A stretch of 64,000 nt of DNA, from positions 620,001-684,000 of the forward strand of contig NZ_JAJUKH010000002.1 in assembly GCF_021538675.1 (NCBI RefSeq), read 5' to 3'. The notes under the pieces are model-generated. The model searched no databases, was not told the DNA's origin, and was given only the letters and a program-made list of their open reading frames with translations. The DNA comes from Paenarthrobacter sp. AR 02 (GTDB lineage: Bacteria; Actinomycetota; Actinomycetes; Actinomycetales; Micrococcaceae). The translations under genes and the position numbers were made by a program. This document shows positions 496 to 16,034 of the stretch, in pieces (within the stretch, counting starts at the first letter, position 1; the number at the start of each line of letters is the position of its first letter).

Positions 496-1542
496 ATGAA
501 GGCTCTCTACAAATCCGGACCCCACGCAGGGTTTGAACTCGTCGACCGTCCCGAGCCCGAAGCCGGCCCCGGCGACGTCAAGATCCGGGTCATGACCACC
601 GGCATCTGCGGCACCGACCTCCACATCCAAAGCTGGGACGCCTGGGCGCAGGGGATCATCGAGGCACCCCTCATCGCGGGCCACGAGTTCTACGGTGAAG
701 TGGTGGAAATCGGCGAGGACGTCCGCGACGTCAAGGTAGGGGACCGGGTCTCCGGTGAAGGCCACGTGGTCTGCGGAATTTGCCGCAACTGCCGTGCCGG
801 ACGCCGCCAGATGTGTATCCACACCGTCTCCGTCGGCGTGCAGCGCGATGGCGCATTCGCAGAGTACGTTGTCATCCCGGAAACGAACGTTTGGGTCCAC
901 CACGACGAATCCGTTACCCCGGAACTCGGCGCTATCTTCGACCCCTTCGGCAACGCCGTGCATACCGCATTGAGCTTCCCGTTGGTCGGCGAAGACGTGC
1001 TCATTACCGGTGCCGGACCCATCGGACTCATGGCCATCGCCGTCGCCCGCCACGCCGGTGCCCGCAAGATTGCCATCACCGACGTCTCCGCACCCCGGCT
1101 GGAACTCGCCCGGCAGATGGGCGTGGACCTCGCGGTTGACGTGTCCAAGATGCGTGTCCGCGAAGCGCAGCAGGAACTGGGTATGCGTGAAGGGTTCGAC
1201 ATTGGACTGGAAATGTCCGGACACCCCACGGCACTGCCTGAGATGATCGACAACATGAACCACGGCGGACGCATCGCCATGCTGGGCCTGCCCAGCCAGT
1301 CCATCGACATCGACTGGGGCAAGGTAGTCACCCACATGCTCACCCTGAAGGGCATCTATGGCCGTGAAATGTTCGAGACCTGGTACGCCATGAGTGCCAT
1401 GCTCTCTTCCAACCCGGTGCTCCACCGCAGTATCTCCGCAGTGGTCACCGACAAGCTCTCCGCATCCGACTGGGAAAAGGGCTTCGACATCGCCCGCAAC
1501 GGTACCGGCGGAAAAGTGGTCCTCGACTGGACCGAACTCTAA
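496..1542 (+). CDS. tdh: L-threonine 3-dehydrogenase
   Basis: Zinc-dependent medium-chain dehydrogenase that oxidises L-threonine with NAD to 2-amino-3-ketobutyrate in the cytosol. Length is 348 aa, close to the E. coli enzyme. Cys38 in GICGTD and the GHE motif at 62-64 are catalytic zinc ligands. Cys93, 96, 99 and 107 form the structural zinc lobe with the same spacing as in E. coli Tdh. A Rossmann GAGPIG motif follows near residue 172. The start is the ATG at 496, preceded by GTGAGGA. An in-frame ATG at 436 is less likely because it adds residues the family lacks. The next gene, kbl, follows after 34 bp and consumes the product. Confidence 0.96.
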
Positions 1543-1576
1543 CCGGACCGACTTTCCCTCACCCTTAGGAGCACCC

Positions 1577-2770
1577 ATGTACTCAGCCATCAAAGACCAA
1601 CTGCAGGGCGAACTCGACGAGATCCGCAGCGCCGGACTCTTCAAGACCGAACGCCACATCGACTCCCCGCAGGCCAGCCACATCGCTGCCGGCCAACTCG
1701 GCCAGCCCGCCAACAAGGTCCTGAACTTCTGCGCGAACAACTACCTGGGCCTGGCCGACCACCCGGACATCATCGCCGCGGCCAAGTCCGCCATGGACGA
1801 GCGTGGCTTCGGCATGGCTTCCGTACGTTTCATTTGCGGTACCCAGGACCTCCACCTGGAACTGGAGGCCCGCGTTTCGGCGTTCCTGGGCACCGAGGAC
1901 ACTATCCTGTTCTCCAGCTGCTTTGACGCCAACGGGGGTGTTTTTGAGTCGCTGTTCGGTCCGGAAGACGCCATCATTTCCGACTCCCTGAACCATGCCT
2001 CCATCATTGACGGCATCCGCCTGAGCAAGGCCAAGCGCTTCCGCTACGCCAACCAGGACATGGCTGACCTGGAAGCGAAGCTCGTTGAGGCCTCCGGTTC
2101 ACGACGCAAGATCATCGTCACCGACGGCGTCTTCTCCATGGACGGCTACCTGGCACCCCTCGAAGCCATCTGCGACCTCGCCGAAAAGCACGACGCCCTG
2201 GTCATGGTGGACGACTCCCACGCCGTTGGCTTCATGGGACCCACCGGTGCCGGCACCCCCGAGCACGCCGGCGTTTCCGACCGGGTGGACATTTACACGG
2301 GTACCTTCGGCAAGGCCCTGGGCGGCGCCTCCGGCGGCTACGTTTCCGGCCGCGGCGAGATCGTTGCCATGCTCCGCCAGAAGGCGCGCCCGTACCTGTT
2401 CTCCAACTCCTTGGCCCCGGCCATTGTTGCCGCCACCATCAAGGCGATCGAACTGGTCCAGGAATCGGGCGAACTGCGCACCCGTCTCTTCGAGAACGCT
2501 GCGCTCTTCCGCCGCCGTATGAGCGAGGAAGGCTTCGAACTCCTCGACGGCGAACACGCCATCATCCCGGTCATGTTCGGCGACGCCGTCATGGCGGCAC
2601 GCGTGGCGGACCAGATGCTCCAGCACGGCGTCTTCGTCACCGCTTTCAGCTTCCCCGTCGTGCCCAGGGGCGCCGCCCGGATCCGCGTTCAGCTTTCGGC
2701 TGCCCACAGCTCGGACGACGTCGAAGCGTGCGTTCAGGCGTTCGTCAAGAGTCGCGCCGCAGTCGCCTAA
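1577..2770 (+). CDS. kbl: Glycine C-acetyltransferase (2-amino-3-ketobutyrate CoA ligase)
   Basis: PLP enzyme of the alpha-oxoamine synthase family that cleaves 2-amino-3-ketobutyrate with CoA to glycine and acetyl-CoA. With tdh it completes threonine catabolism. The 397-aa length matches E. coli Kbl. The PLP lysine is Lys246 in [10 protein letters not shown], and the upstream DDSHAVGF and [11 protein letters not shown] segments are typical of the family. The start ATG at 1577 follows a TTAGGAG ribosome site. An open frame reaching further 5' runs into tdh out of frame and is not used. It is almost certainly co-transcribed with tdh. Confidence 0.96.
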
Positions 2771-2778
2771 GCCCGACG

Positions 2779-2905
2779 CTCTCTCACGTCCCGCCTGTTT
2801 GGGCCCAACCCTCGCTCACGTCCTTCAGGAAATTGAGTGAGGGTTTGGGTTTTGTGGGTGGGGTGTGAGTGAGGGTTTGGGTTTTGTGGGTGGGATGTGA
2901 GAGAG
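2779..2905. repeat. Intergenic repeat element: 32-bp tandem copies inside an imperfect inverted repeat
   Basis: Two near-identical 32-bp units occupy 2834-2865 and 2866-2897; each contains GAGGGTTTGGGTTTTGTGG. The element is bracketed by 14-bp arms, 2779-2792 and 2892-2905, that pair with one G.T wobble. Inner segments (2806-2823 against the tandem units) are also complementary. The composition, G/T-rich on one strand, differs from the flanking genes. It may be a REP-like palindromic element or a terminator for kbl. Copy number in the genome cannot be seen here. Confidence 0.6.
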
Positions 2906-2929
2906 GATCTGTTCTGACAGGATGGAGCC

Positions 2930-4027
2930 ATGGCTTCGAATTATGACGTGGTAATCGTTGGCGGCGGCATCGGGGGGCTTTCCCTGGCCGCGGCGCTGGC
3001 AGGCAAATGCACGGTTGCATTGGTTGAGGCCGAACAGTCCTTGGCTTTTCACACGTCTTCGCGATCCGCAAGGCAACTCATCCCCAGCTATGGTCCCGCC
3101 GTGGTACAGGACCTGACCGTCCGGACACTGGAGATGCTGGGGGAGAGGGACGCGCAGTCAGCGGAACCAATCCTCACGCCCCGGGGCTTCATGCTGGTGG
3201 GTGACGAGGAGACCGTCCGGGCCGAAGCCAGCGGCAACATGCACCCTATTTCCCACGACCAGGCCATGCAGCTGTGCCCGGCGCTTAACCCTGATTCCTT
3301 CACGGCCGCGGGCCTGGATAATGGGTCGTTCGGCTGCAACGCCCCGCTCCTTCTCGAGGAACACCGCCGTACGGCCGAAGCTGCCGGCGTGGACATCATC
3401 ACCGGAGCAAAGGTGCACTCGGCCCAACGGTTGGGGAGCGGCTGGCAGGTGGGGGCAGGAACCGAAGGATTCCAGTCCGGCGTCGTGGTTAATGCGGCCG
3501 GCGCATGGGCGGACGAATTGGCCGTCATCAGCGGGGTGGAGAAGCTGGGACTTCAGCCGTACCGGAGGACCGCGGCGATCGTGAACGTGGACAACCCCCT
3601 GACGCCGGAGACGCCCATGGTTTGCGCCGCGGACGATTCCTTCTATTTCCGGGCCGAGGGGCGGCAAGTCCTGATTTCGCCGTCGGAAACGGTGCCGAGC
3701 GGTGCCGAAGATGCCAAGCCGTACCCTGGTGACGTTGAGGCTTTGATCACCAGGCTCAACGCCGTGACGTCGTTGGGAATCCGGTCGGTGGACCGCGCCT
3801 GGACGGGGCTGAGGACCGAAGCCGCGGACGGAATCCCGGTGGTGGGATTCGACGCCGAAGCGCCCGGCTTCTTCTGGCTCGCCGGACAGGGCGGGTACGG
3901 TTTCCAGACTTCGTCCGCCATAGCGCAGCTGGCCGCAGCACTCATCCTGGGGGACGTTGAAGCCGACAGTCCGGAATCCCGGACAGCGGAGCAACTCGCG
4001 GCAGTACGCTGGTCCATCCGGCGCTGA
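2930..4027 (+). CDS. FAD-dependent oxidoreductase, DAO family
   Basis: A 365-aa flavoprotein of the D-amino-acid-oxidase/glycine-oxidase fold. The dinucleotide-binding motif GGGIGG lies at residues 11-16, and a C-terminal GQGGYGFQTS segment is typical of the FAD-contacting end of DAO proteins. There is no signal peptide or membrane helix, so it is cytosolic. The substrate is probably an amino or hydroxy acid but cannot be read from sequence. hutI follows after 11 bp on the same strand, so the two are likely co-transcribed, which hints at amino-acid or imidazole catabolism. The gene begins directly downstream of the repeat element. Confidence 0.8.
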   Translation: MASNYDVVIVGGGIGGLSLAAALAGKCTVALVEAEQSLAFHTSSRSARQLIPSYGPAVVQDLTVRTLEMLGERDAQSAEPILTPRGFMLVGDEETVRAEASGNMHPISHDQAMQLCPALNPDSFTAAGLDNGSFGCNAPLLLEEHRRTAEAAGVDIITGAKVHSAQRLGSGWQVGAGTEGFQSGVVVNAAGAWADELAVISGVEKLGLQPYRRTAAIVNVDNPLTPETPMVCAADDSFYFRAEGRQVLISPSETVPSGAEDAKPYPGDVEALITRLNAVTSLGIRSVDRAWTGLRTEAADGIPVVGFDAEAPGFFWLAGQGGYGFQTSSAIAQLAAALILGDVEADSPESRTAEQLAAVRWSIRR

Positions 4028-4038
4028 ACAATAGGGTC

Positions 4039-5271
4039 ATGAGCGGAAACAGGAACAGCGGCAGCACACTCATCACCAACATCGGCGAGCTGATGACCCA
4101 GGACCTGGAGCACCGGGTCCTCAAGGATGCGGCGATCGTCATCGAGGGGGAGCGCATCGCATGGCTGGGGTCCAGCGCGGATGCCCCGTCGGCCGATGAA
4201 ATGATCGACGCCGAGGGCCGCGCCGTCCTGCCCGGCTGGGTGGATTCGCACTCGCACCTGGTCTTCGCAGGTGACCGCACTGCCGAGTTCGAGGCCCGGA
4301 TGGCCGGCGAAAGCTACAGTGCAGGCGGAATTGCCGTCACCACGGGAGCCACACGATCAGCCAGCGACGACGAACTGACCCGCCTTGTGCGGGACCGCGT
4401 GGCCGAGGCAGTCTCCCAAGGCACCACCTACCTTGAAAGCAAGACCGGTTACGGGCTGGACGTGGAAAACGAGGCCCGCAGCGCCCGCATCGCTGCTGCG
4501 GAAGTCGATGAAGTCACCTATCTCGGCGCGCACCTGGTCCCGAAAGGATCCGACCCGGAGGAGTACACGGACCTGGTCTGCGGTCCCATGCTCGACGCCG
4601 TCCTGCCGTACGTCCGCTGGGCCGACGTTTTCTGCGAGCGGGGTGCCTTCACGGAGGACCAGTCCCGCCGCGTCCTGACTGCCGCCCGCGATGCCGGCCT
4701 GGGCCTCCGGGTGCACGGCAACCAGCTGGGCGAGGGCCCCGGCGTTGCCCTGGCTGTCGAGTTCGCGGCTGCGAGCGTCGACCACGTTAACTACCTTTCG
4801 GACAAGGACGTGAAAGCGCTCGCGGAAACATGGGCCGGCTGGGATCCGGCGACGGGACAGGGGACGAAGGGGACGGTGGCAACCTGCCTCCCCGCCTGCG
4901 ACCTGTCCACCCGCCAACCACTGGCACCCGGCCGCGAACTGATCGATGCCGGGGTGCAGATTGCGCTGGCGGCCAACTGCAATCCCGGCACCTCCTACAC
5001 CAGTTCCATGGCGTTCTGCGTCACCACGGCCGTGCTCCAGATGCACCTGAGCGTCCATGAAGCCGTCCGCGCGGCAACGTATGGCGGCGCCTTGGCGCTG
5101 GGCAGGGAGTCAGGGAACGACGCCGACGGCGAACGGGCGGTGGGTTCGCTCGCCGTCGGCCATCGCGCTGACCTGCACATGCTCAAGGCGCCGTCGGCCA
5201 CGCACCTGGCCTATCGTCCCGGTATCCCGCTGACGCATTCGGTGTGGCGGGCGGGCATACGCGCCGTCTAG
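4039..5271 (+). CDS. hutI: Imidazolonepropionase
   Basis: Metal-dependent amidohydrolase that opens 4-imidazolone-5-propionate to N-formimino-L-glutamate, the third step of histidine degradation. Length is 410 aa, normal for HutI. The metal-binding HSH lies at residues 71-73, followed by the family segment GDRTAEFEARMAGESY. Later motifs are RVHGNQLG, DHVNYL and an NCNPGTSYTSSM loop. The other histidine-utilisation genes (hutU, hutH, hutG) are not in the window. An FAD oxidoreductase precedes it by 11 bp. The gene ends immediately before a perfect 22-bp inverted repeat that probably terminates transcription. Confidence 0.93.
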   Translation: MSGNRNSGSTLITNIGELMTQDLEHRVLKDAAIVIEGERIAWLGSSADAPSADEMIDAEGRAVLPGWVDSHSHLVFAGDRTAEFEARMAGESYSAGGIAVTTGATRSASDDELTRLVRDRVAEAVSQGTTYLESKTGYGLDVENEARSARIAAAEVDEVTYLGAHLVPKGSDPEEYTDLVCGPMLDAVLPYVRWADVFCERGAFTEDQSRRVLTAARDAGLGLRVHGNQLGEGPGVALAVEFAAASVDHVNYLSDKDVKALAETWAGWDPATGQGTKGTVATCLPACDLSTRQPLAPGRELIDAGVQIALAANCNPGTSYTSSMAFCVTTAVLQMHLSVHEAVRAATYGGALALGRESGNDADGERAVGSLAVGHRADLHMLKAPSATHLAYRPGIPLTHSVWRAGIRAV

Positions 5272-5277
5272 TTAAAG

Positions 5278-5340
5278 CAACGCGGGGTCACTTACGGCCC
5301 ATTCCGGTGCCCCGGATCGGCCGTAAGTGACCCCGCGTTG
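5278..5340. terminator. Perfect 22-bp inverted repeat between convergent hutI and GH101 gene
   Basis: The arms 5278-5299 and 5319-5340 are exact reverse complements of 22 bp with a 19-bp loop. There is no T-run. It sits between convergent genes, so it could be a bidirectional terminator or a copy of a dispersed palindrome. Confidence 0.7.
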
Positions 5341-5373
5341 GGCCTCCCGCGTTGGGCCTCCCGCGTTGGGCCT
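5337..5373. repeat. 14-bp tandem repeat at the 3' end of the GH101 gene
   Basis: The unit GTTGGGCCTCCCGC is repeated about 2.6 times. It starts in the right arm of the neighbouring inverted repeat and ends in the stop codon of the GH101 gene. Its function is unknown; it may be a slippage product. Confidence 0.7.
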
Positions 5374-8300
5374 AGGCGCAGCTGAACTTCGCGTCGGCCC
5401 AGTCGCCCCAGTCATCGCCTGCGTCGTCGCCGTTCTTGTCGGCGATCAACTCGATAGTGCGAACACCGGTGATGTCCACGTTGAGGGGCAGTGCTGCCGA
5501 GTCGGCGCTGAGGACGGGGGTGCGCAGAAGCTCCCGCTCGTCGCCCTTCACGATGAACACCACTGAGCCGTGCAGGCCCTTGTTCAGCTTGGCGTCGTCG
5601 ACTCCCACCACGGCGGTGAAAGCGTTGCACTTGGCTTCCGTGGCGATGCTGATCTTCGAGTCGGCATGGACGCCGATTCCCTTGGAGTACACGACGCCGT
5701 CGAGCCGCAGCGCTGGCCCGTCGCCGGCGTTCTGCTCACCATTCGCCCGGTCCCGTTCCGCAGGTCCCCAACCGTTGGTGCTGCCGGTCCAGGGCAGGTC
5801 GGAGGCGAACACGGTGCCCGACAACACGGGTGCCGGGGGCTCTTGCGCGGTGGAGGAACACGTGAACTTTGCGTCTGCCCAGTCGGCGTGGTCGTTGCCA
5901 TTGGAATCGCCGGCGTCGTTGGCCACCAGTTCCACGTACTGGGCCCCGGTGACGTCGACGGTGAGGGGGAACGGTGCACTGGTCGCTCCCAGCACCGGGG
6001 TAGCGACCTTGGTGGTGCCGTCAGCAACGACGGAGAACTTCACGCTGCCCCGGGTCGCTTGCGCATCATCGATGCCTACGGTCGCGGTGAAGGCAGTGCA
6101 GTATCCGCCAAGGTAATACCGGATATTACCGTTGGCGTGGGCACCGAGGCCCTTGGCATAAACGGTGCCGTTCAGGGTGAGCGGCGTCCCGTCGCCGGCC
6201 CCGGTCCCGCCGTTGGACTGGTCCTTCTCCACGGGTCCCCAACCGTTGGTGGCGCTGACCCAGGGATGGTCGGTGGCGTACACCGTGGCCTGGGGAGGTT
6301 TAGGTAAAGTCCGCACCGTGGTGGTGGTGCTGAGGGCCCGGGTCCCTGCTGGCTCTGTGGTGGTTGAATACTTGGCCCTCGCGGTGATGGGGTAGTCGCC
6401 GTCCGCCGAAGCCGGTGCGGTGATCTTCCACGTGGTGGTCAACGTACCTCCGGCGGGCAGGGTTGCAGCCGTGGCGGGAGTGGCCGGGGTTGCCGTCCAC
6501 CCGTCGGGCAGCGCAAGGGAGATATCCAGCCCGTTAATGGGGGCCGGTTCATCCGAGGTGAAGGTGGTGACGAAGTCCTGGGCCTTGCCCTGCTGGATCA
6601 CGTCGCCTTGAAGGGCCGCTGAGAGTTGCGCGCAGGCGGGGACCGCTTCGGAGGCTCCGAGGTCTTCGACCAGGAGGTTGTCCAGGGTGAAGTCCGAACC
6701 GTTGGAGCTGCCCGTTCGCTGCAAACCGACGAAGTAGTCCCCGCAGAAGCCGGTGTCCAGGGTCTGCTCGAACCGGGTGGTGGAGGTGGCGGCGTCGATC
6801 GCCTGGCTGCCTGTCACTGCCGGGCCGGCTTGTGAGTCGTAGCCTGCGACCCAGGCGTATTGCCCGGCCTTGGAGTTCTGGTAATCGAACGACACCTTGT
6901 ACTTGTGGCCGGCCTGGAACGGCATGGTTGCCTCGGTGGAGCGGTACACCATGCCCGGTCCCCCGTTCGGGCCAAGGTTTTCGTCATGGGCGATCAGTGA
7001 CCAGTTTCCGCCCAGCACTTCGTCGATCACGTTGGTGTTCCAGCCCTTTTGGGTGAAGGGTTCGTGGCGCTCGGTGATGTGGGTTCGCGGGTCCGTGGAG
7101 CCGCCGGCGTCGCCCTTGACGAACGGTCCCCATCCTTGGTCCACGTTTTCGAAGTCCTCGCTGAGCACCCCTGTTGTGGCCACCCGGGTGGTTTTCACCG
7201 CCCGGAAGTCGTCGACGCGCACTGTGGCATCGCCGTCGGCGGCTGTGACGGCGACTGTGGCCTTGGTGTTGTTCTGGGGAACGTCCACCAGCACGCGGAT
7301 GCGCTGGAACGAGGTCCCGTGTTTCTCGTCGCCGGCCACGAAGTTCTCGGCGTTGGAAGAATCGATGGTGGTCTTTTCCGTTGTCCCGTCAACAGTGACG
7401 GAGAGCGTCGTGGTCCGGGTTTTACCGGGTTCAATTTCCACCCAGGCGCTTACGGATTGGGTTCCGGCGTCCAGCTTCACGTCCTGGCTGATCGACGACG
7501 GCGTTGCCCCCAATGCGGCGAAGCGGCGGCCCTTGTCGTCGCGGACCTGCGTGACGGTGCCGGTGGGGTTCCACGGGGAGAGGTCTGCGCCGTTGAAGCC
7601 GGGGTCGTTGAAGGATGTGCCCTCACCAAAGTCCGCCTTCTTGGGAAGAGCGTTGTCCTTGGCGGTGAGGACGTAGGGCTGCTTGGCATCGGCCGTGACG
7701 CTGACCTGGCCGTTGACCACCGGGACATCGGCAACCTTGACGCGGCCGTTGTCGGTCAGTTTGAACAGCTCAAGCGTGCGGGACCTGGCGAACTCCTTGG
7801 TCAGGGTCCACGTGCTGGCTCCGCCTGCGGGGTTGTAGTGGTAAAGCTTGTCTGCCTTGCCGTCCTCCTTGGAAGCCCACGGCAGAAGGTACGTTCCACC
7901 CTGGAGGACCGATGCGCCGCCAACGGTGATGGTGCGCTCGGCAGCGGTGTTTCCAGTCACGGCCACGCCATCGGCAAGATCGATGCGGTCGGGCGTCCAC
8001 TTGGTGATCTGGTGATGCTGCAGGAATTTGGCCGGCAGGTTGGCCGTCCACACGTTCTCGCTGAACGCATTGAAGTCGTTCTGCCCGGTCCACCCTTCGA
8101 ACTCCACAATGTGGCTCACACCGAGCTTGGGGTCCGGGTTCCACACGTCTGATTGGGTGTTGTTGATGAAGCGCAGGATTTGGGAATTGATGCCCTTGTT
8201 GGTGGAGCCGCCGTATTTCTCGTCGTTGGCCCAGTGCGACCAGGTGTTGTTCCTGGACAGGTGGTCCGCCCATTCGGACCCCACCCTGAAGCCATTCTTG

Positions 8301-9754
8301 ACGAGTTCCTGCTGCAGCCGTTCGGCGAGCCAACCGAACTCGTAGTAGACGTCCACGTAGACGAAGTCCAGGTTTTTGTCGGTGGCGTCGCGCAGTTCTT
8401 TGATGCGTTGGGCGAGCTTGCCGGAGTTGATGTCATGGCGCTGGTTGATGTAGTAGGACTGGTCCAGCCAGTTCCAGCCGAGGCCCTTGTCCGCCCTCAG
8501 GAGATCTTCGCTGAAGGATTTGGCTTCGGGGTAGATTTCCGTGGCATTGATGTGGACACCGAAGCTGGCGTTCCAGTCCTTGCCTTCCTTGACCAGCTTG
8601 TTGAGGTCCTCGAGCCCACCGGCCCGGGTGTTGAAGTTGTTGCCGTAGTCCGTGTTGGCCGAGTCGTGGCCCTCGCTGGTGTAGCCCTTGAGCATCGCCA
8701 CCTGCCCCAGCCCATCCGTTGCCAGGGAGATGCGTTTGACGTCGTCAAGGGTGCGGAGGAAGGGATGGGTTGCCTGGGAGGCGAAATTGAAGGGGATGTG
8801 GGTGATGACGTTGTCCGGGGTCTGTTCGCCCTTGTTGGCGCTGACCTGGATGGACCTCATGGCGATGGCCGCGTCCTGCCAGTCCACGCCGCCGTCCGCG
8901 TTGGCATCTGCTGTGATTGCCACCCGGGTCCACGGCAGTTCCTCTGTACGCTCGGAGCCGTCGGCCCGGTAGAGCCATTGTCCGCTCGCCAGGCCCATGG
9001 AAACCCCTCCGGCGCCGTCGCTCACTGCCTGGCGCCAAAAGCGTCCGCGGTCTTTGGCGCCCGGCCCGGACGATGTGTCGTAGAGGGCGTTGGATTCAAC
9101 GGCCGCGCCCAGCGATGCGGTGTTGGCCAGCGCATATGCGGAGCTCTTGGCCGCAGCATCAAGAGGGGTCGAGGCCGTGATGGGTGTGAACTCATCGCCG
9201 GTGACGCTCCGGTCCACGGAAAGGTTTGCCGTGGACACCTGGGCGCCTGGCTGCGTGGAGCTGACGGTCACCAGGTTCAGCCGGGGGAGTTGCAGTGTTT
9301 TTACTTGGTGCTCCGCCGTGTCCTTGATCTCCGTGACGTTGAACGAGACCACGTTCTTCTTCACGGACAGCCGGGCTTTGATCACGGTATTGCCGAACCC
9401 GGGCACGGTGAGGACGTAGTCCCTTGCATCTTTGCCGGAGGCGGTCGAGGTGCCGCTGACGCTGTACTCCGTGCCGTTGATGGTGATGGAGGCAAGCCGT
9501 GTGGTGGTTCCGTCCAGGCGGGCCTTGGTGGCTGTGTCGGTGTAGCCGAGGACTTGAGGAAAGGTGGTGGCCACGTCCACCCGGAGTTGTCCGGAGGTGA
9601 TGGTGGTGGTGTCGGACGCGCTGATGGTTTCGGCGGGTTGGGTGGTGGCAGAGGCCGCTGCGGGTGGGAGGGCCATGAGGCCCAGCGATGATGAGGCGAC
9701 GACGCACGCCAAACTGAGCGAGGCGAGCCGTCCGGGGGATGACAAGCGGGGCAT
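5372..9754 (-). CDS. Secreted endo-alpha-N-acetylgalactosaminidase (GH101) with NEW3 and two NPCBM domains
   Basis: A 1460-aa exported glycosidase predicted to release Gal-beta-1,3-GalNAc from serine/threonine-linked mucin-type glycans. Residues 1-35 form a signal peptide ending in an Ala-rich stretch. The catalytic region (about 250-600) has GVHINATEIYPEAKSF and FVYVDVYYEFGW; the Asp in YVDVY (about 468) aligns with the family nucleophile, and the Glu in VGSEWAD (about 494) with the acid/base. A NEW3-like Ig domain lies near 1060-1165. Two homologous NPCBM/NEW2 carbohydrate-binding domains follow, near 1165-1310 and 1315-1460, each ending in DWADAKF-C. There is no LPXTG or membrane anchor, so it is probably released. 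The ATG at 9754 is preferred because AGAAGGAG lies just upstream; an in-frame ATG at 9793 lacks this. It is divergent from the GalNAc catabolic operon. Confidence 0.9.
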   Translation of the reverse strand: MPRLSSPGRLASLSLACVVASSSLGLMALPPAAASATTQPAETISASDTTTITSGQLRVDVATTFPQVLGYTDTATKARLDGTTTRLASITINGTEYSVSGTSTASGKDARDYVLTVPGFGNTVIKARLSVKKNVVSFNVTEIKDTAEHQVKTLQLPRLNLVTVSSTQPGAQVSTANLSVDRSVTGDEFTPITASTPLDAAAKSSAYALANTASLGAAVESNALYDTSSGPGAKDRGRFWRQAVSDGAGGVSMGLASGQWLYRADGSERTEELPWTRVAITADANADGGVDWQDAAIAMRSIQVSANKGEQTPDNVITHIPFNFASQATHPFLRTLDDVKRISLATDGLGQVAMLKGYTSEGHDSANTDYGNNFNTRAGGLEDLNKLVKEGKDWNASFGVHINATEIYPEAKSFSEDLLRADKGLGWNWLDQSYYINQRHDINSGKLAQRIKELRDATDKNLDFVYVDVYYEFGWLAERLQQELVKNGFRVGSEWADHLSRNNTWSHWANDEKYGGSTNKGINSQILRFINNTQSDVWNPDPKLGVSHIVEFEGWTGQNDFNAFSENVWTANLPAKFLQHHQITKWTPDRIDLADGVAVTGNTAAERTITVGGASVLQGGTYLLPWASKEDGKADKLYHYNPAGGASTWTLTKEFARSRTLELFKLTDNGRVKVADVPVVNGQVSVTADAKQPYVLTAKDNALPKKADFGEGTSFNDPGFNGADLSPWNPTGTVTQVRDDKGRRFAALGATPSSISQDVKLDAGTQSVSAWVEIEPGKTRTTTLSVTVDGTTEKTTIDSSNAENFVAGDEKHGTSFQRIRVLVDVPQNNTKATVAVTAADGDATVRVDDFRAVKTTRVATTGVLSEDFENVDQGWGPFVKGDAGGSTDPRTHITERHEPFTQKGWNTNVIDEVLGGNWSLIAHDENLGPNGGPGMVYRSTEATMPFQAGHKYKVSFDYQNSKAGQYAWVAGYDSQAGPAVTGSQAIDAATSTTRFEQTLDTGFCGDYFVGLQRTGSSNGSDFTLDNLLVEDLGASEAVPACAQLSAALQGDVIQQGKAQDFVTTFTSDEPAPINGLDISLALPDGWTATPATPATAATLPAGGTLTTTWKITAPASADGDYPITARAKYSTTTEPAGTRALSTTTTVRTLPKPPQATVYATDHPWVSATNGWGPVEKDQSNGGTGAGDGTPLTLNGTVYAKGLGAHANGNIRYYLGGYCTAFTATVGIDDAQATRGSVKFSVVADGTTKVATPVLGATSAPFPLTVDVTGAQYVELVANDAGDSNGNDHADWADAKFTCSSTAQEPPAPVLSGTVFASDLPWTGSTNGWGPAERDRANGEQNAGDGPALRLDGVVYSKGIGVHADSKISIATEAKCNAFTAVVGVDDAKLNKGLHGSVVFIVKGDERELLRTPVLSADSAALPLNVDITGVRTIELIADKNGDDAGDDWGDWADAKFSCA

Positions 9755-10028
9755 GATGCTCCTTCTTGATTTTTCCAAGCTATTAACAGTCATGTTCTTG
9801 CGGACTCAACCAAGACTGCTGCATCGGACAGAAGTTGACAAGAGTTAACAGGTAGTTAACTAAAATGCACACGAAACCACATGATTTTCGTTGTCCGACA
9901 CACATCGCACCAATGCGCGGTTCATGAGCAGTCTTCTCCCATGGATGATCCTTGTGAGATCGAAAATGATCGTTTAGTGTTTCTATAGATCAGAAAACGT
10001 CATTAACTTGAGCGGGAACGGGAACACG
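9755..10028. promoter_or_regulatory. Divergent promoter region of the GalNAc module with candidate operators
   Basis: This AT-richer gap separates the GH101 gene from the sugar operon. It contains a perfect palindrome AGTTAAC-aggta-GTTAACT at 9843-9861. It also holds a spaced inverted pair, ATGATTTTCG at 9881-9890 and CGAAAATGAT at 9961-9970 (one mismatch). These are candidate sites for the DeoR-family regulator encoded at the end of the operon. Both transcription directions must start here, but no single promoter stands out clearly. Confidence 0.5.
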
Positions 10029-10946
10029 ATGAGCGAGAACACACTGGGCGCCTTCATGGAGGAAGAGCTGGTTTCCCAGCCCGACGTTTGGCAGCGGGCC
10101 GTTGAACAGGCGGGATCGGAGCAACTGCTCCCCGCCGACGGCCAGCGCATCGCCGTCATCGGCTGTGGAACATCCTGGTTCATGGCCCAGAGCTACGCGG
10201 CTGCCCGCGAATCTGCCGGCAAGGGCGTGACCGATGCGTTCGCTGCCTCCGAGGCTTTCCTGAACCACAACAGCGCCGATCGCCAGTACGACGCCGTTGT
10301 GGCCATTACGCGTTCCGGCACCACCACTGAGGTACTTGAGATCCTGGCCGATTTGAAGGGGATCGTTCCCACCGTCGCGATCATTGGTGACACGACGTCT
10401 CCGATCATTGACTTGGCAGACACTGTGATTGGCCTGCAGTACGCCGATGAGCGTTCCGTGGTCCAGACCCGCTTCGCCACCACGGCTTTGGTCTACCTGC
10501 TCAGCAGCCTCGGGATCGACGTGCAGCAGGCCATCGAGGACGCCCGCGACGCCGTCAGCGCCCCTGTCTCCCAGGAACTGTTGGACGCGGAGCAGTTCAC
10601 CTTCCTTGGCACTGGCTGGACAGTAGGCCTCGCCCACGAGGCCGGTTTGAAAATGCGCGAGGCAGTCCAGGGCTGGACCGAGTCGTACCCCGCCATGGAG
10701 TACCGCCACGGCCCCATCTCCATCGCTGCCCCCGGTCGTGTCACCTGGTTGTTCGGTGCCCAGCCCGAAGGCCTTGACCACGACATGGCAGTAACCGGAG
10801 CCCTGTACGTCCACACGGACAAGCACCCCCTGGCCGAATTGGCCCGCGTGCACAAAGTCACCCTGGAACGCGCACGCGTCCGCGGACTCAATCCGGATCT
10901 GCCCAGGAACCTGACACGCTCCGTCATTCTCGACGCCTCAGCCTAG
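10029..10946 (+). CDS. SIS-domain sugar isomerase/deaminase (AgaS-like)
   Basis: A 305-aa protein with two SIS domains, roughly residues 25-165 and 185-300, resembling the isomerase half of GlmS and AgaS. Visible motifs are IGCGTSWFMAQ, ITRSGTTTEVLE and, in the second domain, MEYRHGPISIAAPG. In the GalNAc route an AgaS-type enzyme converts galactosamine-6-phosphate to tagatose-6-phosphate with loss of ammonia. That role fits this operon but is inferred. The ATG at 10029 is chosen; an in-frame TTG at 10008 is an alternative. It is the first gene of a five-gene operon, and the ROK gene starts 9 bp after its stop. It could instead be a fructosamine or other sugar-phosphate isomerase. Confidence 0.8.
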   Translation: MSENTLGAFMEEELVSQPDVWQRAVEQAGSEQLLPADGQRIAVIGCGTSWFMAQSYAAARESAGKGVTDAFAASEAFLNHNSADRQYDAVVAITRSGTTTEVLEILADLKGIVPTVAIIGDTTSPIIDLADTVIGLQYADERSVVQTRFATTALVYLLSSLGIDVQQAIEDARDAVSAPVSQELLDAEQFTFLGTGWTVGLAHEAGLKMREAVQGWTESYPAMEYRHGPISIAAPGRVTWLFGAQPEGLDHDMAVTGALYVHTDKHPLAELARVHKVTLERARVRGLNPDLPRNLTRSVILDASA

Positions 10947-10955
10947 GTACCCAGC

Positions 10956-11891
10956 ATGGTTCTCGGAGCCGCGGAATCACCCGTCCTGTCCTTCGACGTT
11001 GGCGGGACCGACATCAAAGCTGGTTTGGTGGATGCACGGGGTGAAGTCCTTGGCATGCGCCGGGTCCCGACGCCACTGGACTCCTCCCGGCCGGGCGAGG
11101 CAGTGCTGGACCGGCTCGCGGAGCTTGCTGCCGAGTTGGCTACCGAGTTCCCGGGATCACCCGCCCGGGCAGCCGGCATCATTGTTCCCGGCATTGTCGA
11201 CTCGGTGGCCGGTGTTGGTGTCTACTCCGCAAACCTTGGGTGGCGTGACTTCCCGTTCACAGCCGAAGCCGAGAGGCGGCTGGGCATCCCGGTCGCTTTC
11301 GATCACGACGTCCGCTCCGCCGCCGCCGTAGAACACAGCCTGGGTGGGTCCAGGGAGTTCAATGACGTTGTGGTGATGGTAGTGGGAACCGGCATTGCCG
11401 CCGCTGTCTTCTCCGGCGGCAAGCCCGTGACAGCGGGCGGGTTCGCAGGGGAGCTGGGCCACGCCCAGGTCCCGGACCCTGATGCCGCCCCTGGCACCGC
11501 GGGCTCCACGATCCTCGAAGCCGTCGGCTCGGCAGGGGCCATCGCCAAGCGCTACCACCGCGCCTCGGGCAACAGGGTGAACGGCGCCCGCGGTGTTCTG
11601 CTCCGTGCAAACGACGGCGACCAGCTGGCGGCCCGCATCTGGGCCGACGCCGTGGACGCCCTTGCCTTCACCATCTGCCAATGCGTCAACATCATCGGAA
11701 CCGAAGCCGTCGTGATCGGCGGTGGGCTCGCCGAAGCGGGCGAGGAGCTGCTGGAGCCCCTCCGCGCCCGAGTTGACCACATCCTCGATTTCCAGCGACG
11801 TCCACAACTGATCCGAGCCCAGTTGGGACAGGACGCCGGCCTGTTGGGTGCGGCCTTGAACGCCAGGGCTCTCCTGGGAGGCAAACAGTGA
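10956..11891 (+). CDS. ROK-family sugar kinase
   Basis: A 311-aa ROK (repressor, ORF, kinase) protein without an N-terminal HTH, so an enzyme rather than a regulator. The phosphate-binding motif DVGGTDIKAG lies at residues 12-21, and the catalytic Asp is expected in AFDHDVRSAA. The usual CxCGxxGCxE zinc site is absent: the equivalent stretch after GELGHAQV has no cysteine. In this operon it would phosphorylate GalNAc or galactosamine at C6; glucose or ManNAc kinase remain possible. Its TGA overlaps the GTG of the next gene (GTGA), which indicates translational coupling. Confidence 0.82.
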   Translation: MVLGAAESPVLSFDVGGTDIKAGLVDARGEVLGMRRVPTPLDSSRPGEAVLDRLAELAAELATEFPGSPARAAGIIVPGIVDSVAGVGVYSANLGWRDFPFTAEAERRLGIPVAFDHDVRSAAAVEHSLGGSREFNDVVVMVVGTGIAAAVFSGGKPVTAGGFAGELGHAQVPDPDAAPGTAGSTILEAVGSAGAIAKRYHRASGNRVNGARGVLLRANDGDQLAARIWADAVDALAFTICQCVNIIGTEAVVIGGGLAEAGEELLEPLRARVDHILDFQRRPQLIRAQLGQDAGLLGAALNARALLGGKQ

Positions 11892-12856
11892 ACCGAGCCG
11901 CCGTGAACCGCATCATTACCGTCACGCCCAACCCGGCCATCGACATGACCTACACCGTGCAGGGCATCACCGAGGGTGCCAGCCACCGCGTCCCGACCCC
12001 CTTGAGCAGGGCAGGAGGCAAAGGCATCAACGTGGCCCGCGTGACCCACCAGCTCGGATATCCGGTCCTCGCGATCGCCCCGACCGGCGGTGCGGCGGGG
12101 CAAACCCTCGCCGCTGAACTCTGGACCAGCGGGGTTCCGCACACCCTTGTGGGAGTTGCCGCCGAGACGCGGCGAAGCATCGCACTGGTGGACACCGTCG
12201 CCGGGGAAACCTCGATCTTCAATGAGGAGGGCCAAGCTCTGCTGCCCGACGATTGGCGCTCGCTCCGGATTGCGGTGGTGGAAGCCGTGAGTGGCAACCG
12301 AAACCTTCCCGCCTCGGTGCTGGTCGGCTCGGGGAGCCTGCCGCCGGGCGCGCCTGCTGATTTCTACCCGGAGTTGGTGCGGTTGGCCCACGACGCCGGT
12401 ATACCGGCCATCATCGACACCTCCGGTCCCGGGATCATCGCTGCCGCCAAAGCAGGCGCCGACATCCTGAAACCGAATCACCACGAACTTGCCGAAGCGA
12501 CCGGCGAGTCCAGCCTTGAAGCGGCTGCCCTGTCGCTGATTGCCATGGGTGCCCGCACGGTGCTGGTCAGCGCCGGCGCGGACGGCATGCTCGCCTTCGA
12601 CCATGCGGCCCCGGGCGGCTACTGGAGCGCCCGCTTGCCTGAGGCGCTCAGCGGCAACCCCACAGGGGCGGGCGACGCCGGTGTGGCGGCGGCCGCCGTC
12701 GCACTCGCCGAAGGCGTCACTGAACCACGCGAAATCCTTCGGCGGGCCACCGCCTGGTCCGCCGCGGCGGTGCTCATGCCCGCAGCGGGCGAAATTTCGC
12801 CGCGCTACCAGGAACTTCAAGACCAACTGATCGTGACATGGAAGGAGACCCGGTGA
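11888..12856 (+). CDS. PfkB-family kinase, probable tagatose-6-phosphate (or 1-phosphofructo-) kinase
   Basis: A 322-aa ribokinase-fold enzyme of the LacC/FruK group. It begins with ITVTPNPAIDMTY, typical of 1-phosphofructokinase and tagatose-6-phosphate kinase. It has LKPNHHELAEATGE in the middle and ends with the anion-hole signature GNPTGAGDAG. The predicted reaction is tagatose-6-phosphate plus ATP to tagatose-1,6-bisphosphate, judged by its place between the SIS/ROK genes and an aldolase. The GTG at 11888 overlaps the ROK stop; another GTG at 11903 is possible. The gene in turn overlaps the aldolase start by GTGA. Confidence 0.82.
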   Translation: MNRAAVNRIITVTPNPAIDMTYTVQGITEGASHRVPTPLSRAGGKGINVARVTHQLGYPVLAIAPTGGAAGQTLAAELWTSGVPHTLVGVAAETRRSIALVDTVAGETSIFNEEGQALLPDDWRSLRIAVVEAVSGNRNLPASVLVGSGSLPPGAPADFYPELVRLAHDAGIPAIIDTSGPGIIAAAKAGADILKPNHHELAEATGESSLEAAALSLIAMGARTVLVSAGADGMLAFDHAAPGGYWSARLPEALSGNPTGAGDAGVAAAAVALAEGVTEPREILRRATAWSAAAVLMPAAGEISPRYQELQDQLIVTWKETR

Positions 12857-13692
12857 CCCTGGTCAACACACGGGAGCTGATGGACTCAGCCGCAGCCAAC
12901 GGCACAGGCCAAGGCGCGTTCAACATCATCCACATCGAGACAGCCGAGGGCCTGGTTGCCGGCGCGGAAGCGGCGGGGGTCCCGCTCATCCTGCAGATTT
13001 CCGAAAACTGCGCGAAGTATCACGGCGGCTTGGAGCCCATCGCGACGGCGGCCCTTGCGATCGCACGCGCCGCTTCCGTTCCCGTCGCCCTCCACCTGGA
13101 CCACGCCGAATCCGAGGACCTCGCGCTCGCCGCCGTCGACCTTGGCTTCGGTTCGGTGATGTACGACGGCGCGCACCTCCCGTATGAGTGGAATGTCGAA
13201 GTTACCCAGCGTGTTGCCGAATACGCCCACGCAAAGGGCGTCTACGTTGAGGCCGAGCTCGGTAAGGTCGGGGGCAAGGACGGAGCCCACGCGCCAGGCG
13301 TCCGGACCGACCCTGCGGAAGCCCAGGCATTCGTTGAAGCTACGGGTGTGGATGCCCTGGCAGTGGCTGTTGGCTCGTCCCATGCCATGACCGAACGCAG
13401 CGCCGCCCTGGACCTGCATCTGATCTCCCGATTGAAGTCAGCGGTAGGTAAACCATTGGTCCTCCACGGCTCCTCCGGTGTCACAGACGAGGTGCTCGTA
13501 GCCGCTATCGCCTCGGGTATGACTAAAATCAACGTATCCACACATTTGAACGGGTTCTTTACCCGCGCCGTCCGTGAGTACCTCGATGCCAACCCTGCAG
13601 TGGTGGATTCCCGGAAGTACATCAAGGCCGGCCGGGATGCCCTGGTGCTGGAGTCCGCACGTATGCTGACGCTGTTCGCCAAAGCGAAATAG
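12853..13692 (+). CDS. Class II fructose/tagatose-bisphosphate aldolase
   Basis: A 279-aa zinc aldolase of the KbaY/GatY/FbaA type that cleaves a ketose-1,6-bisphosphate to DHAP and glyceraldehyde-3-phosphate. Metal and substrate motifs are visible: ALHLDHAES, YVEAELGKVGGKDG, the active-site HGSSGV and the phosphate-binding KINVSTHLN. The GTG at 12853 is preferred over the ATG at 12838 because GAAGGAG lies between them at the right distance and a GTGA overlap with the preceding stop results. The neighbours make tagatose-1,6-bisphosphate the likely substrate; fructose-bisphosphate cannot be excluded. Confidence 0.88.
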   Translation: MTLVNTRELMDSAAANGTGQGAFNIIHIETAEGLVAGAEAAGVPLILQISENCAKYHGGLEPIATAALAIARAASVPVALHLDHAESEDLALAAVDLGFGSVMYDGAHLPYEWNVEVTQRVAEYAHAKGVYVEAELGKVGGKDGAHAPGVRTDPAEAQAFVEATGVDALAVAVGSSHAMTERSAALDLHLISRLKSAVGKPLVLHGSSGVTDEVLVAAIASGMTKINVSTHLNGFFTRAVREYLDANPAVVDSRKYIKAGRDALVLESARMLTLFAKAK

Positions 13693-13716
13693 CAAGGAAC
13701 CCGCGAAAGGCTCGTC

Positions 13717-14508
13717 ATGACCCGCACCGATCGGCTGACCGCCATCCTCGATCTCCTGGCCGAGTCCGGCCATGTGGAAGTCGAGGACATCGTGACGCGT
13801 TTGGGCGTGTCGCCTGCAACGGCCCGGCGGGATCTCGACAGCCTAGCCAAGCAGCGGCTGCTCAGCCGAACCAGGGGAGGCGCCACCACCGGGTCCGTTG
13901 CCTACGACCTCCCCGGGCGGTACAACCGGGACGATCACGCCGAGGCCAAGCAGGAAATCGCATTGGCCGCGTCGTCGTTGATCCGCCCCGGTGCCGTGAT
14001 CGGCCTGAGTGGCGGAACCACCAACACGGCCCTGGCCCAGCTTCTCTCCACCCGTGAGGACCTCAACGCGCCGTCAAACAGGCCTACGTTGACCGTCGTG
14101 ACCAACGCCATCAACATCGCCTCCCAACTGGCAGTCCGGCCCAATATCAAGATCATGGTGACCGGCGGGATCCTGAATCCCCGTTCCTACGAACTTGTGG
14201 GCCCCTACACCGATGTCATCATGCAGAAGGTGGCGCTGGACATCGCCTTCATCGGCGTCAACGGCGTGGATCCGGACCTAGGCCCCACCATCACCGATGA
14301 AGGCGAAGCCATGGTCAACACGGTGATGGCTCGCCGGGCCACGGAGTCCTACGTCGTGGCGGACTCCTCCAAAGTGGGCAGGCGCTCTTTCGCGGCCATG
14401 TCCGGCTACGATTTCCGGCACCTCATCACCGATTCGGGCATCAGTGCCGAGCACAAAGCCGCGTTTGAGGCCAAGGGCACCGAAGTCATCGTCGCGCCTG
14501 CCGGCTAG
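13717..14508 (+). CDS. DeoR-family transcriptional regulator (AgaR/GlpR-like)
   Basis: A 263-aa DeoR repressor. The N-terminal winged helix (residues 1-60) contains VSPATARRDLDSL. The sugar-phosphate-sensing domain has the expected LSGGTTN, GGILN and the pair FIGVNGVD / TDEGEAMVN. It starts 24 bp after the aldolase, with AAGGAACCCGCGAAAGG upstream, and is the last gene of the operon. It presumably represses the operon and the GH101 gene and responds to a phosphorylated sugar. The candidate sites are the palindromes at 9843-9861 and 9881-9970. Target assignment is inference. Confidence 0.9.
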   Translation: MTRTDRLTAILDLLAESGHVEVEDIVTRLGVSPATARRDLDSLAKQRLLSRTRGGATTGSVAYDLPGRYNRDDHAEAKQEIALAASSLIRPGAVIGLSGGTTNTALAQLLSTREDLNAPSNRPTLTVVTNAINIASQLAVRPNIKIMVTGGILNPRSYELVGPYTDVIMQKVALDIAFIGVNGVDPDLGPTITDEGEAMVNTVMARRATESYVVADSSKVGRRSFAAMSGYDFRHLITDSGISAEHKAAFEAKGTEVIVAPAG

Positions 14509-14517
14509 GGTCTGCTG

Positions 14518-15210
14518 CTAGAACCGCATCCTTGGCGCGTGCAGTACCGAATCGTCCACGTCCCTGGGCACCCACTGGGTGAACGGCAGGTCCAAACTGT
14601 ACTGGTCGTCGTCGTTCTTGATCAGCGTGCGTAACTCGGCGTTCTCCGGGTTGTTCAGCGACTCGAAGTACTCCACCGTCCAGTGGAACCAGCGCATGCA
14701 AAACAGGCGCATTGTCAGGCCGTGCGTCACGAGCAGCGTGTTCGGTGCATAGGTGGGCTTCTGCCAATGGCGGTACAACGTTTCCATGAACGAGGACACG
14801 CGGTCGTACACGTCCGAGCCTGACTCACCCTCGCGGAAGCGATAGAAGAAATGGCCGTAGAGGTTGCGGAGCTCCTTTTGGTCCTCGATGTCTCCGGCTA
14901 TCTGGAAGTTGGCCCAGTCCTGTTCCCGCAGCCGGGGCTCCTCGACCACCCGCTCCACCAGTGAACCAAGGTTCATGGCTTCAAGAGTCTGATACGCCCG
15001 CAGGTACGGTGAAACGTAGACGCAGACCTGCTCGCCGTCGAGCCTCCGGCGAAGGTCCTCACCGGCGATCCGTGCCTCCTGCAGACCTTGGTCCGTCAGG
15101 GGGATCCGATAGTCCGGCACACGGTTGTAGATGGACGTGTCGGCATTCGCGGCGGACTGGCCGTGCCGAATCATGAAAATTCTCCCAGGGGCACCCATCC
15201 CACCAAGCAT
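14518..15210 (-). CDS. Histidine phosphatase family protein
   Basis: A 230-aa phosphoglycerate-mutase-fold protein. The phosphohistidine motif is RHGQSAAN near residues 15-22, and the second histidine region is VTHGLTMRLF near 165. YLRAYQTLEAM is the usual mid-domain arginine segment. The specific substrate is unknown; such proteins act on phosphosugars, phosphoproteins or nucleotides. In-frame ATGs at 15210 and 15198 are both possible starts. It is convergent with the DeoR gene (9 bp between stops) and divergent from the CPBP gene. Confidence 0.82.
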   Translation of the reverse strand: MLGGMGAPGRIFMIRHGQSAANADTSIYNRVPDYRIPLTDQGLQEARIAGEDLRRRLDGEQVCVYVSPYLRAYQTLEAMNLGSLVERVVEEPRLREQDWANFQIAGDIEDQKELRNLYGHFFYRFREGESGSDVYDRVSSFMETLYRHWQKPTYAPNTLLVTHGLTMRLFCMRWFHWTVEYFESLNNPENAELRTLIKNDDDQYSLDLPFTQWVPRDVDDSVLHAPRMRF

Positions 15211-15260
15211 AGGGCGGCGGTTCCCGGCAAAGTGGCAGGAACTGCAGGCAAGATAGGTAC

Positions 15261-16034
15261 ATGTTCCTTGCCTCCCAACGCCGGCTGCGCGCCGAAGTGC
15301 TGATTGTGCTTGGTCTTTCCCTGGGGCAGTCGGCCGTCTATTCGGTGGTGCAGCTGCTGGACAAGATGACCCGGGCGCCGTTGGCGGATGCGACCTCGAC
15401 CTTGAACAGGTCCCAAAGCACCCGCGAATACTTCGACCTCACGTACCAGTTGCTGGACATCGTGTTCGCCCTGGTGCCTGTGGCGCTGGTGTTCTACTTC
15501 CTGTCCACGCATGTCCAGGCAAACCGGAACGGCGACAACGGATCAGCGTTCGCCCGGCTGGGGTTCAATTTCGCCCGGCCCGGCAAGGACCTGCTCCACG
15601 GACTGGGACTGGCTGCAGCCATCGGTATCCCTTCGTTGGGCCTTTACACGGCAGGAAGGGCACTGGGCATCACCACGGCGATTGTACCCAGTGGCCTGGA
15701 CGCGTACTGGTGGACGGTGCCTGTGCTGATCCTGTCCGCGATCCGGCACGGGATCGTGGAGGAAGTGATCGTGGTCGGTTACCTGATGGACCGCTTCGGC
15801 AAATTCGGGTGGAGCACGCCGGTGGCCATCGCTGTCAGCGCAGTCCTGCGCGGGAGTTACCACCTTTACCAGGGCTTTGGGCCCTTCATTGGCAACGTCG
15901 TGATGGGCCTGGTCTTCGCCTGGATCTACACCAGGACCAAGCGGGTGATGCCCTTGGTCATCGCCCATGCGTTGCTGGACATCGTGGCGTTCGTTGGGTT
16001 CAGCCTCTTCGGGAAGGCAGTGGGGCTGGGGTAG
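15261..16034 (+). CDS. CPBP-family intramembrane protein (putative CAAX-type protease)
   Basis: A 257-aa polytopic membrane protein, about seven helices, of the CPBP (Abi/CAAX) family. The glutamate pair in GIVEEVIVVGYL is motif 1, but the arginine of the usual EExxxR is a valine here. Motif 2 is GSYHLYQGF and motif 3 is IAHALLDIV, so the histidine and aspartate ligands are kept. Members act as intramembrane proteases, often in bacteriocin immunity or prenyl-protein processing. The target here is unknown. Its promoter lies in the 50-bp gap to the divergent phosphatase gene. Confidence 0.8.
   Translation: MFLASQRRLRAEVLIVLGLSLGQSAVYSVVQLLDKMTRAPLADATSTLNRSQSTREYFDLTYQLLDIVFALVPVALVFYFLSTHVQANRNGDNGSAFARLGFNFARPGKDLLHGLGLAAAIGIPSLGLYTAGRALGITTAIVPSGLDAYWWTVPVLILSAIRHGIVEEVIVVGYLMDRFGKFGWSTPVAIAVSAVLRGSYHLYQGFGPFIGNVVMGLVFAWIYTRTKRVMPLVIAHALLDIVAFVGFSLFGKAVGLG

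Follow-up and report, generated by a model that had tools for sequence, protein, structure and literature searches.

A GH101 glycanase gene divergent from a proposed N-acetylgalactosamine catabolic operon in Paenarthrobacter sp. AR 02 and its relatives

We analyzed a stretch of 64,000 nt, hereafter the window, from the 4.42-Mb genome of Paenarthrobacter sp. AR 02 (assembly GCF_021538675.1, contig NZ_JAJUKH010000002.1, positions 620,001–684,000). A gene for a glycoside hydrolase of family GH101 on the minus strand (5372–9793) lies there divergent from five plus-strand genes (10029–14508) in the order SIS, ROK, PfkB, class II aldolase, DeoR, and neighboring genes of this operon overlap or almost abut. 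All six frames are open at these coordinates and all six proteins pass their Pfam cut-offs, so that the families and gene order given in a preliminary description of the locus stand. Gene content, conserved linkage and co-occurrence are direct observations. From them, we consider it likely that the operon encodes a catabolic pathway for N-acetylgalactosamine (GalNAc) and galactosamine (GalN) without a linked phosphotransferase system (PTS), and that the divergent GH101 gene is an optional feeder of this pathway. The genes and candidate control sites are as follows, with Tag denoting tagatose, P phosphate and PDB the Protein Data Bank.

5372–9793, minus strand: GH101 endo-alpha-N-acetylgalactosaminidase, predicted to be secreted (Pfam PF12905, 396 bits against a cut-off of 25, and PDB matches)
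9843–9861, no strand: 19-bp palindrome AGTTAAC-N5-GTTAACT, candidate operator upstream of GH101 (recurrence in relatives)
9947–10002, plus strand: conserved control block before SIS (alignment of seven loci)
9964–9975, no strand: AAATGATCGTTT, candidate DeoR operator (genome-wide uniqueness and a palindrome in relatives)
10029–10946, plus strand: SIS-fold deaminase/isomerase, proposed to convert GalN-6-P to Tag-6-P (Pfam SIS)
10956–11891, plus strand: ROK kinase, proposed GalNAc 6-kinase (Pfam ROK, 163 bits)
11888–12856, plus strand: PfkB-family hexose-phosphate kinase, proposed Tag-6-P kinase (TIGR03168, 237 bits, cut-off 216)
12838–13692, plus strand: class II ketose-bisphosphate aldolase, proposed Tag-1,6-bisphosphate aldolase (TIGR00167, 220 bits, cut-off 215.6)
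13717–14508, plus strand: DeoR-family regulator, likely repressor of the operon (PF00455 and PF08220)

Translation of GH101 probably starts at the ATG at 9754, which is preceded by AAGGAG, rather than at 9793; the SIS start is most likely the ATG at 10029 rather than the TTG at 10008, and a GTG near 12853 is a possible start for the aldolase. GH101 is a GalNAc-specific family, and the AR 02 genome holds one copy. Its Pfam domains comprise the catalytic domain, a mutarotase-like domain, a C-terminal domain and two C-terminal NPCBM domains, behind an N-terminus that looks signal-like by eye. The PDB matches are EngBF (2zxq) and SpGH101 (3ecq). The motifs YVDVYY and GSEW align with YLDVW and TTEW of EngBF, and both catalytic acids are present; by this alignment D481 would be the nucleophile and E507 the acid/base, taking these to be the roles of the EngBF residues. 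The AR 02 enzyme thus shares with EngBF and SpGH101 a complete catalytic module with both acids, but differs from them in its soil actinobacterial host, its two C-terminal NPCBM domains and its position beside a sugar-phosphate operon. Judged by its family, it is predicted to release Gal-beta-1,3-GalNAc from O-glycoproteins.

The pairing of the two transcription units recurs across the family to which AR 02 belongs. Among 395 genomes of this family, with the SIS gene counted at E ≤ 1e-60, GH101 was found in 44 and SIS in 111, and all 44 GH101 genomes carry SIS (hypergeometric 3e-28, with relatedness ignored). Counted by genus, the eight GH101 genera all fall within the 16 SIS genera out of 32 (0.0012). 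An order-wide sample had GH101 in 31 of 297 genomes. GH101 and SIS lie within 8 kb of each other in 36 of the 44 genomes, AR 02 included, and are divergent in every one of these 36, a set that includes a remnant in genome G1006 and a pair 6.2 kb apart in G770. Since the close divergent pair recurs in 36 of 395 genomes, the gene order is not a matter of chance, and the divergence noted in the preliminary description is confirmed well beyond the window. Among 19 GH101 neighborhoods first fetched, the operon was present in three of the four from the family. Pairwise distances of GH101 and SIS correlate in the 16 genomes with both loci (r 0.66, matched in 0 of 2000 permutations). GH101 is nonetheless an optional partner of the operon, as 67 of the 111 SIS-bearing family genomes are without it.

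What relatives carry around the SIS gene was read from 80 named loci (L numbers), the best of at least 588 confirmed; some end at contig edges, so that gene counts are lower bounds. At class level, SIS was found in 111 of 394 genomes at E ≤ 1e-30. Identity to the AR 02 SIS protein reaches 91–93% in L127, L128, L129 and L142, from named relatives in Paenarthrobacter and Arthrobacter. Matches to the aldolase occur in 76 of the 80 stretches, to DeoR in 75, to ROK in 60 and to PfkB in 58, with all five genes in 50. A NagA-type deacetylase lies in 28 stretches, 21 times within 6.5 kb of SIS; among the 28, L135 was discarded as proof that a NagA of the AR 02 type is linked, its linked piece being a frame of only 118 amino acids. 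An ATP-binding cassette (ABC) importer of the SBP12 type also occurs in 28, divergent from SIS in 23 and on the same strand in five. GH20 is found in 10 stretches, GH101 in seven and GH35 in two. The GH101 gene is immediately divergent in L129, L136, L138 and L142, is separated by five predicted frames in L137, and is a 224-amino-acid fragment in L130. No stretch among the 80 holds both the SBP12-type importer and GH101, and L177 (Isoptericola cucumis) pairs GH101 with a different importer type: a binding protein, two presumed permeases, GH35 and GH101 are followed co-directionally by SIS-ROK-PfkB-aldolase, a frame of 69 amino acids lies on the opposite strand between GH101 and SIS, and DeoR gave no match. 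Twenty further neighborhoods gave a NagA-like cluster in eight and an importer in six; L109 is known from a tblastn match only. In L047, L049 and L054, from elsewhere in the order, GH101 is accompanied by GH35, a LacI regulator and an ABC importer, and genome G054 combines such a LacI-ABC-GH35-GH101 locus with a second, SIS-containing operon that has NagA and an importer and a GH20 gene nearby. Taken together, the gene sets of the relatives fit what such a pathway would require: release, import, splitting, phosphorylation, deacetylation, deamination, a further phosphorylation and cleavage.

Gain and loss of GH101 are evident from L130 and G1006, which hold probable remnants, from G771, where the copy is broken, and from L136 and G874, where copies stand in tandem. 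On the GH101 side of the locus, the window carries genes for a glycine C-acetyltransferase, an FAD oxidoreductase and HutI (1394–5271), and a hutI match lies within 15 of the 80 named stretches. In L128 (Arthrobacter sp. NtRootA1), the gap between hutI and SIS (3581–9812) holds a DUF4118 histidine kinase and a TrkH potassium transporter and no GH101, with two further frames outside the family scan. At the other end, an FTR1-imelysin-DyP peroxidase cluster adjoins DeoR in L043 and L045, and a DyP gene is found there in L136; as a candidate sugar transporter this cluster was rejected, being of iron-uptake type. Fourteen Streptomyces loci (L147, L148, L151–L153, L155, L156, L158–L160, L164, L172, L192, L203) have SIS, aldolase and DeoR with no ROK or PfkB match at the threshold used. 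Their kinases may be encoded elsewhere or be too divergent, or the substrate may differ.

The SIS protein had been called AgaS-like. This assignment is ruled out by the AgaS family model TIGR02815, against which the protein scores 19 bits with a cut-off of 529. All ten aligned SIS proteins match AgaS weakly (best E 6e-10) and match GlmS (best 3e-24) and GlmD (best 1e-23) far better, and identity of the AR 02 protein to Escherichia coli AgaS is 24%. The closest relatives are GlmS, GlmD and NagB-II; by sequence, the nearest solved structures are the GlmD-type deaminases of Pyrococcus furiosus and P. horikoshii (2cb0/2dec), and GlmD-type structures also rank top in Foldseek with an AlphaFold model of SIS as query (predicted local distance difference test, pLDDT, 83). 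The fold itself discriminates little, because E. coli AgaS (3c3j), at rank 19, has a TM score of 0.74 against 0.76 for the top match. In an alignment of 80 proteins (the window protein and those of 79 of the 80 named loci), K208, E211, E218 and H227 are invariant; we take these to correspond to Lys485, Glu488, Glu495 and His504 of GlmS. Where GlmS has its Schiff-base lysine, all 80 proteins carry Arg297 and P. furiosus GlmD has a Lys; the AlphaFold model is uninformative on Arg297, as its pLDDT is below 50 at 294–305. The AR 02 enzyme thus resembles GlmD and NagB-II in its top-ranking solved relatives and its retained Lys, Glu, Glu and His, and differs from them in falling far below their equivalog cut-offs, in Arg297 and in its galacto-type neighbors. 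It is best named a GlmD-like enzyme of unproven substrate specificity. The argument for a galacto substrate comes from the neighboring genes, the dedicated PfkB kinase and aldolase, and the presence of a separate NagB in the genome.

For the other enzymes, sequence leaves the substrates of ROK, PfkB and the aldolase undecided between sugars, and a galacto role is proposed from context. The GE-x-G motif of ROK is invariant in ten aligned proteins. At 11487–11519 the AR 02 kinase reads APGTAGSTILE where other ROK proteins have CPC-GARGCLE; this cysteine motif, which we take to be zinc-binding, is lost in five of the ten (L106 and each of the four from the window's family) and retained in the other five. 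The best PDB match of PfkB is LacC (2awd, 1.6e-32), followed by Pfk-2 (2.3e-28). The aldolase is 37% identical to E. coli KbaY, and the DeoR protein 31% identical to E. coli AgaR.

The preliminary description had the GH101 gene and the operon sharing a promoter region. The divergent genes do share one intergenic region, but their promoters look separately controlled, because the candidate DeoR site and the block around it are kept at the SIS end of loci without GH101 and the GH101 side has its own palindrome. In this block (9947–10002), 47 of 56 columns are invariant across seven aligned loci with and without GH101. Across the genome, AAATGATCRTTT has a single exact match, inside this block at the SIS end, for which reason a single operator serving both divergent genes was rejected. 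Of 81 loci, which are related to one another, 18 have the palindrome AAATGATCATTT with at most two mismatches in front of SIS; the rate in 1203 control windows is 0.7%, but these consist mainly of coding sequence and are hence poorer in AT. DeoR is the likely repressor of the operon. On the GH101 side, of the 12 genomes in the genus that have GH101, seven carry AGTTAAC-N5-GTTAACT exactly, one has it with two mismatches and four lack it; it is also exact in L129 and L142, with a variable spacer and constant arms. Chance would give 0.02 per window at up to two mismatches. Among 274 sequences compared, it was found in no locus without GH101, nor did it occur in the 20-kb stretches around AR 02's own GH35, LacZ-linked ABC system, binding protein on contig C36 and nagA. 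We know of no regulator that it matches. A sigma-70 scan of the intergenic region gave no promoter-like site (0.2 expected) and one terminator-like site, at 9748–9762 (0.4 expected).

The deacetylase and transporter had been described as missing from the window. Family scans of the eleven genes at 1394–16034 found neither, the other window genes not having been scanned individually, and genome searches with nagA and two importer binding proteins gave no good match inside the window (the single nagA match there being hutI, at 19.5 bits). The genome does offer candidates elsewhere, partly answering the search that had been suggested for them. A NagA-like protein is encoded on contig C2, 10 kb from a canonical NagB that scores above its cut-off. 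Contig C11 holds the one strong GH35 match, 58% identical to the GH101-linked type. On C1, an ABC system lies beside a LacZ-type GH2 gene, with permeases 48–50% identical to the GH101-linked ones; by sequence, it is the best importer candidate. For the deacetylation step an unlinked NagA would be a plausible candidate, since PMC12680351 gives the Streptomyces coelicolor NagA an in vitro deacetylase activity on GalNAc-6-P (kcat/Km 1.03e4 per M per s) and nagA can substitute for agaA in E. coli, according to PMC12118421. The ROK kinase proposed in place of a PTS is present, and no PTS gene was seen among the linked genes scanned (1394–16034), the genome as a whole not having been searched for one. 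A linked transporter and GalNAc-6-P deacetylase, as expected of an aga-type operon, are seen in some relatives and not at 1394–16034 in AR 02. The earlier picture of a compact mucin-O-glycan locus therefore goes too far: GH101 is tied to the operon within the family, but the candidates for import, GH35 cleavage and deacetylation are unlinked, and most SIS-bearing family genomes lack the glycanase.

The proposed pathway would run as follows. Secreted GH101 would free Gal-beta-1,3-GalNAc, an unlinked ABC importer (perhaps the C1 system) would take up the disaccharide, and an unlinked GH35 or GH2 enzyme would split it into galactose and GalNAc. The ROK kinase would then form GalNAc-6-P, an unlinked NagA would deacetylate it, as the clustered NagA of relatives and the activity of the S. 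coelicolor enzyme suggest, and the GlmD-like SIS enzyme would convert GalN-6-P to Tag-6-P and ammonia. PfkB and then the aldolase would yield triose phosphates, and DeoR would repress the operon. The GalNAc route through Tag-6-P is thus kept, by gene content and linkage, with a GlmD-like enzyme where an AgaS-like one had been assumed.

Several observations weigh against this assignment. Specificity-level models are missed throughout: SIS scores 79.7 bits against GlmD NF041128 (cut-off 580) and 48.6 against NagB-II NF046059 (430), PfkB 115 and 111 against LacC NF010033 (469) and TIGR01231 (409.55), the aldolase 209 and 225 against GatY/KbaY TIGR01858 (443.55) and NF009374 (383), and DeoR 150.6 against AgaR NF040755 (260), so that the enzyme specificities rest on context. 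The best sequence matches of ROK are glucokinases, and the aldolase has a fructose-1,6-bisphosphate (FBP) aldolase as its top PDB match, with AgaY and KbaY close behind. The AR 02 NagA, matched over almost all of its length, falls 5 bits short of TIGR00221 (220.7 against 225.65), and a search of the AR 02 genome for the SIS-linked importer gave no orthologue (best 24%). The candidate DeoR site is absent from the GH101 promoter. Eight of the 44 GH101 genomes have no SIS within 8 kb (four pairs 24–37 kb apart, G240 81 kb, G820 655 kb, and G656 and G785 on different contigs), and the operon SIS gene is in none of the 15 fetched GH101 neighborhoods from other families. Histories of the two genes are also not fully congruent, with GH101/SIS identities of 55–56%/79–80% in three genomes and 66%/82% in one; as GH101 identity is far below SIS identity in these four, some exchange or duplication of GH101 is indicated.

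Some of these points would suit a glycolysis-like operon for N-acetylglucosamine (GlcNAc), in which ROK would make GlcNAc-6-P, SIS would yield fructose-6-phosphate, PfkB would be a phosphofructokinase and the aldolase would act on FBP. The nearest characterized SIS relatives use glucosamine-6-phosphate, the aldolase has its FBP-type best match, and the LacC and Pfk-2 scores of PfkB are close. We nevertheless regard this as unlikely: the genome already encodes a NagB that passes its cut-off, at 10 kb distance from NagA; a kinase and an aldolase dedicated to the operon suit a ketose other than fructose-6-phosphate; and the GalNAc-specific GH101 is confined to SIS-bearing genomes among the 395 of the family. 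Still less probable, to the point that we give it little weight, is a route for sulfoquinovose or another sugar phosphate. The sulfo-Embden-Meyerhof-Parnas pathway uses the same enzyme classes, an isomerase, a kinase and a class II aldolase, with a DeoR regulator, but the neighbors in relatives are GH101, GH35, GH20 and a NagA-type deacetylase, and the SIS protein retains GlmS/GlmD-type residues.

A third alternative is compatible with the GalNAc/GalN assignment, leaves the chemistry unchanged and differs from it in ecology: the operon would serve mainly galactosamine or GalNAc from microbial exopolysaccharides, with GH101 a loose accessory and mucin not the chief source. We hold this to be a serious possibility, if one with somewhat less than an even chance. 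The 67 of 111 SIS genomes without GH101, the remnant and broken copies, the GH20 and importer carried by relatives instead, and the lack of SIS beside GH101 outside the family speak for it, and galactosamine is reported in PMC11014887 to rank second in abundance among soil amino sugars. On the other hand, divergence in 36 genomes and co-occurrence in 44 of 44 imply a long-standing, selected tie within the family.

Compared with the E. coli aga-gam system (AgaR, AgaS, KbaYZ, AgaA and a PTS), the AR 02 locus has in common a DeoR-family regulator, a class II aldolase and the proposed route from GalN-6-P through Tag-6-P to Tag-1,6-bisphosphate, but its genes at 1394–16034 include no PTS, KbaZ or AgaA, and its SIS protein lies outside the AgaS family. 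The Shewanella Aga system (permease AgaP, kinase AgaK, AgaA-II and AgaS), as described in PMC2996990, likewise uses a separate kinase and not a PTS; AR 02 is set apart from it, by descriptions rather than protein comparison, in its ROK kinase, GlmD-like SIS, dedicated PfkB and GH101. We read the locus as familiar chemistry newly arranged, in which at least one enzyme has probably been replaced. Among the matches listed in our literature search, none has a title or abstract opening on a GalNAc pathway of soil actinobacteria, with the subscription literature mostly outside that coverage.

On balance, we think it more likely than not that actinobacteria have their own GalNAc/GalN pathway, in which a GlmD-like SIS protein, non-orthologous to AgaS, was recruited as GalN-6-P deaminase/isomerase alongside a ROK GalNAc kinase. 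Such a pathway would be common in relatives such as Arthrobacter, Microbacterium and Agromyces, with a reduced set in many Streptomyces, would carry an importer or GH101 in its divergent slot, and would serve one of the largest soil amino-sugar pools. AgaS has been used as a signature gene of GalNAc utilization in annotation, as described in PMC5583593. If the activity of the SIS enzyme is confirmed, AgaS-based annotation rules would miss this pathway, and galactosamine turnover would acquire a signature by which to recognize it in soil genomes.

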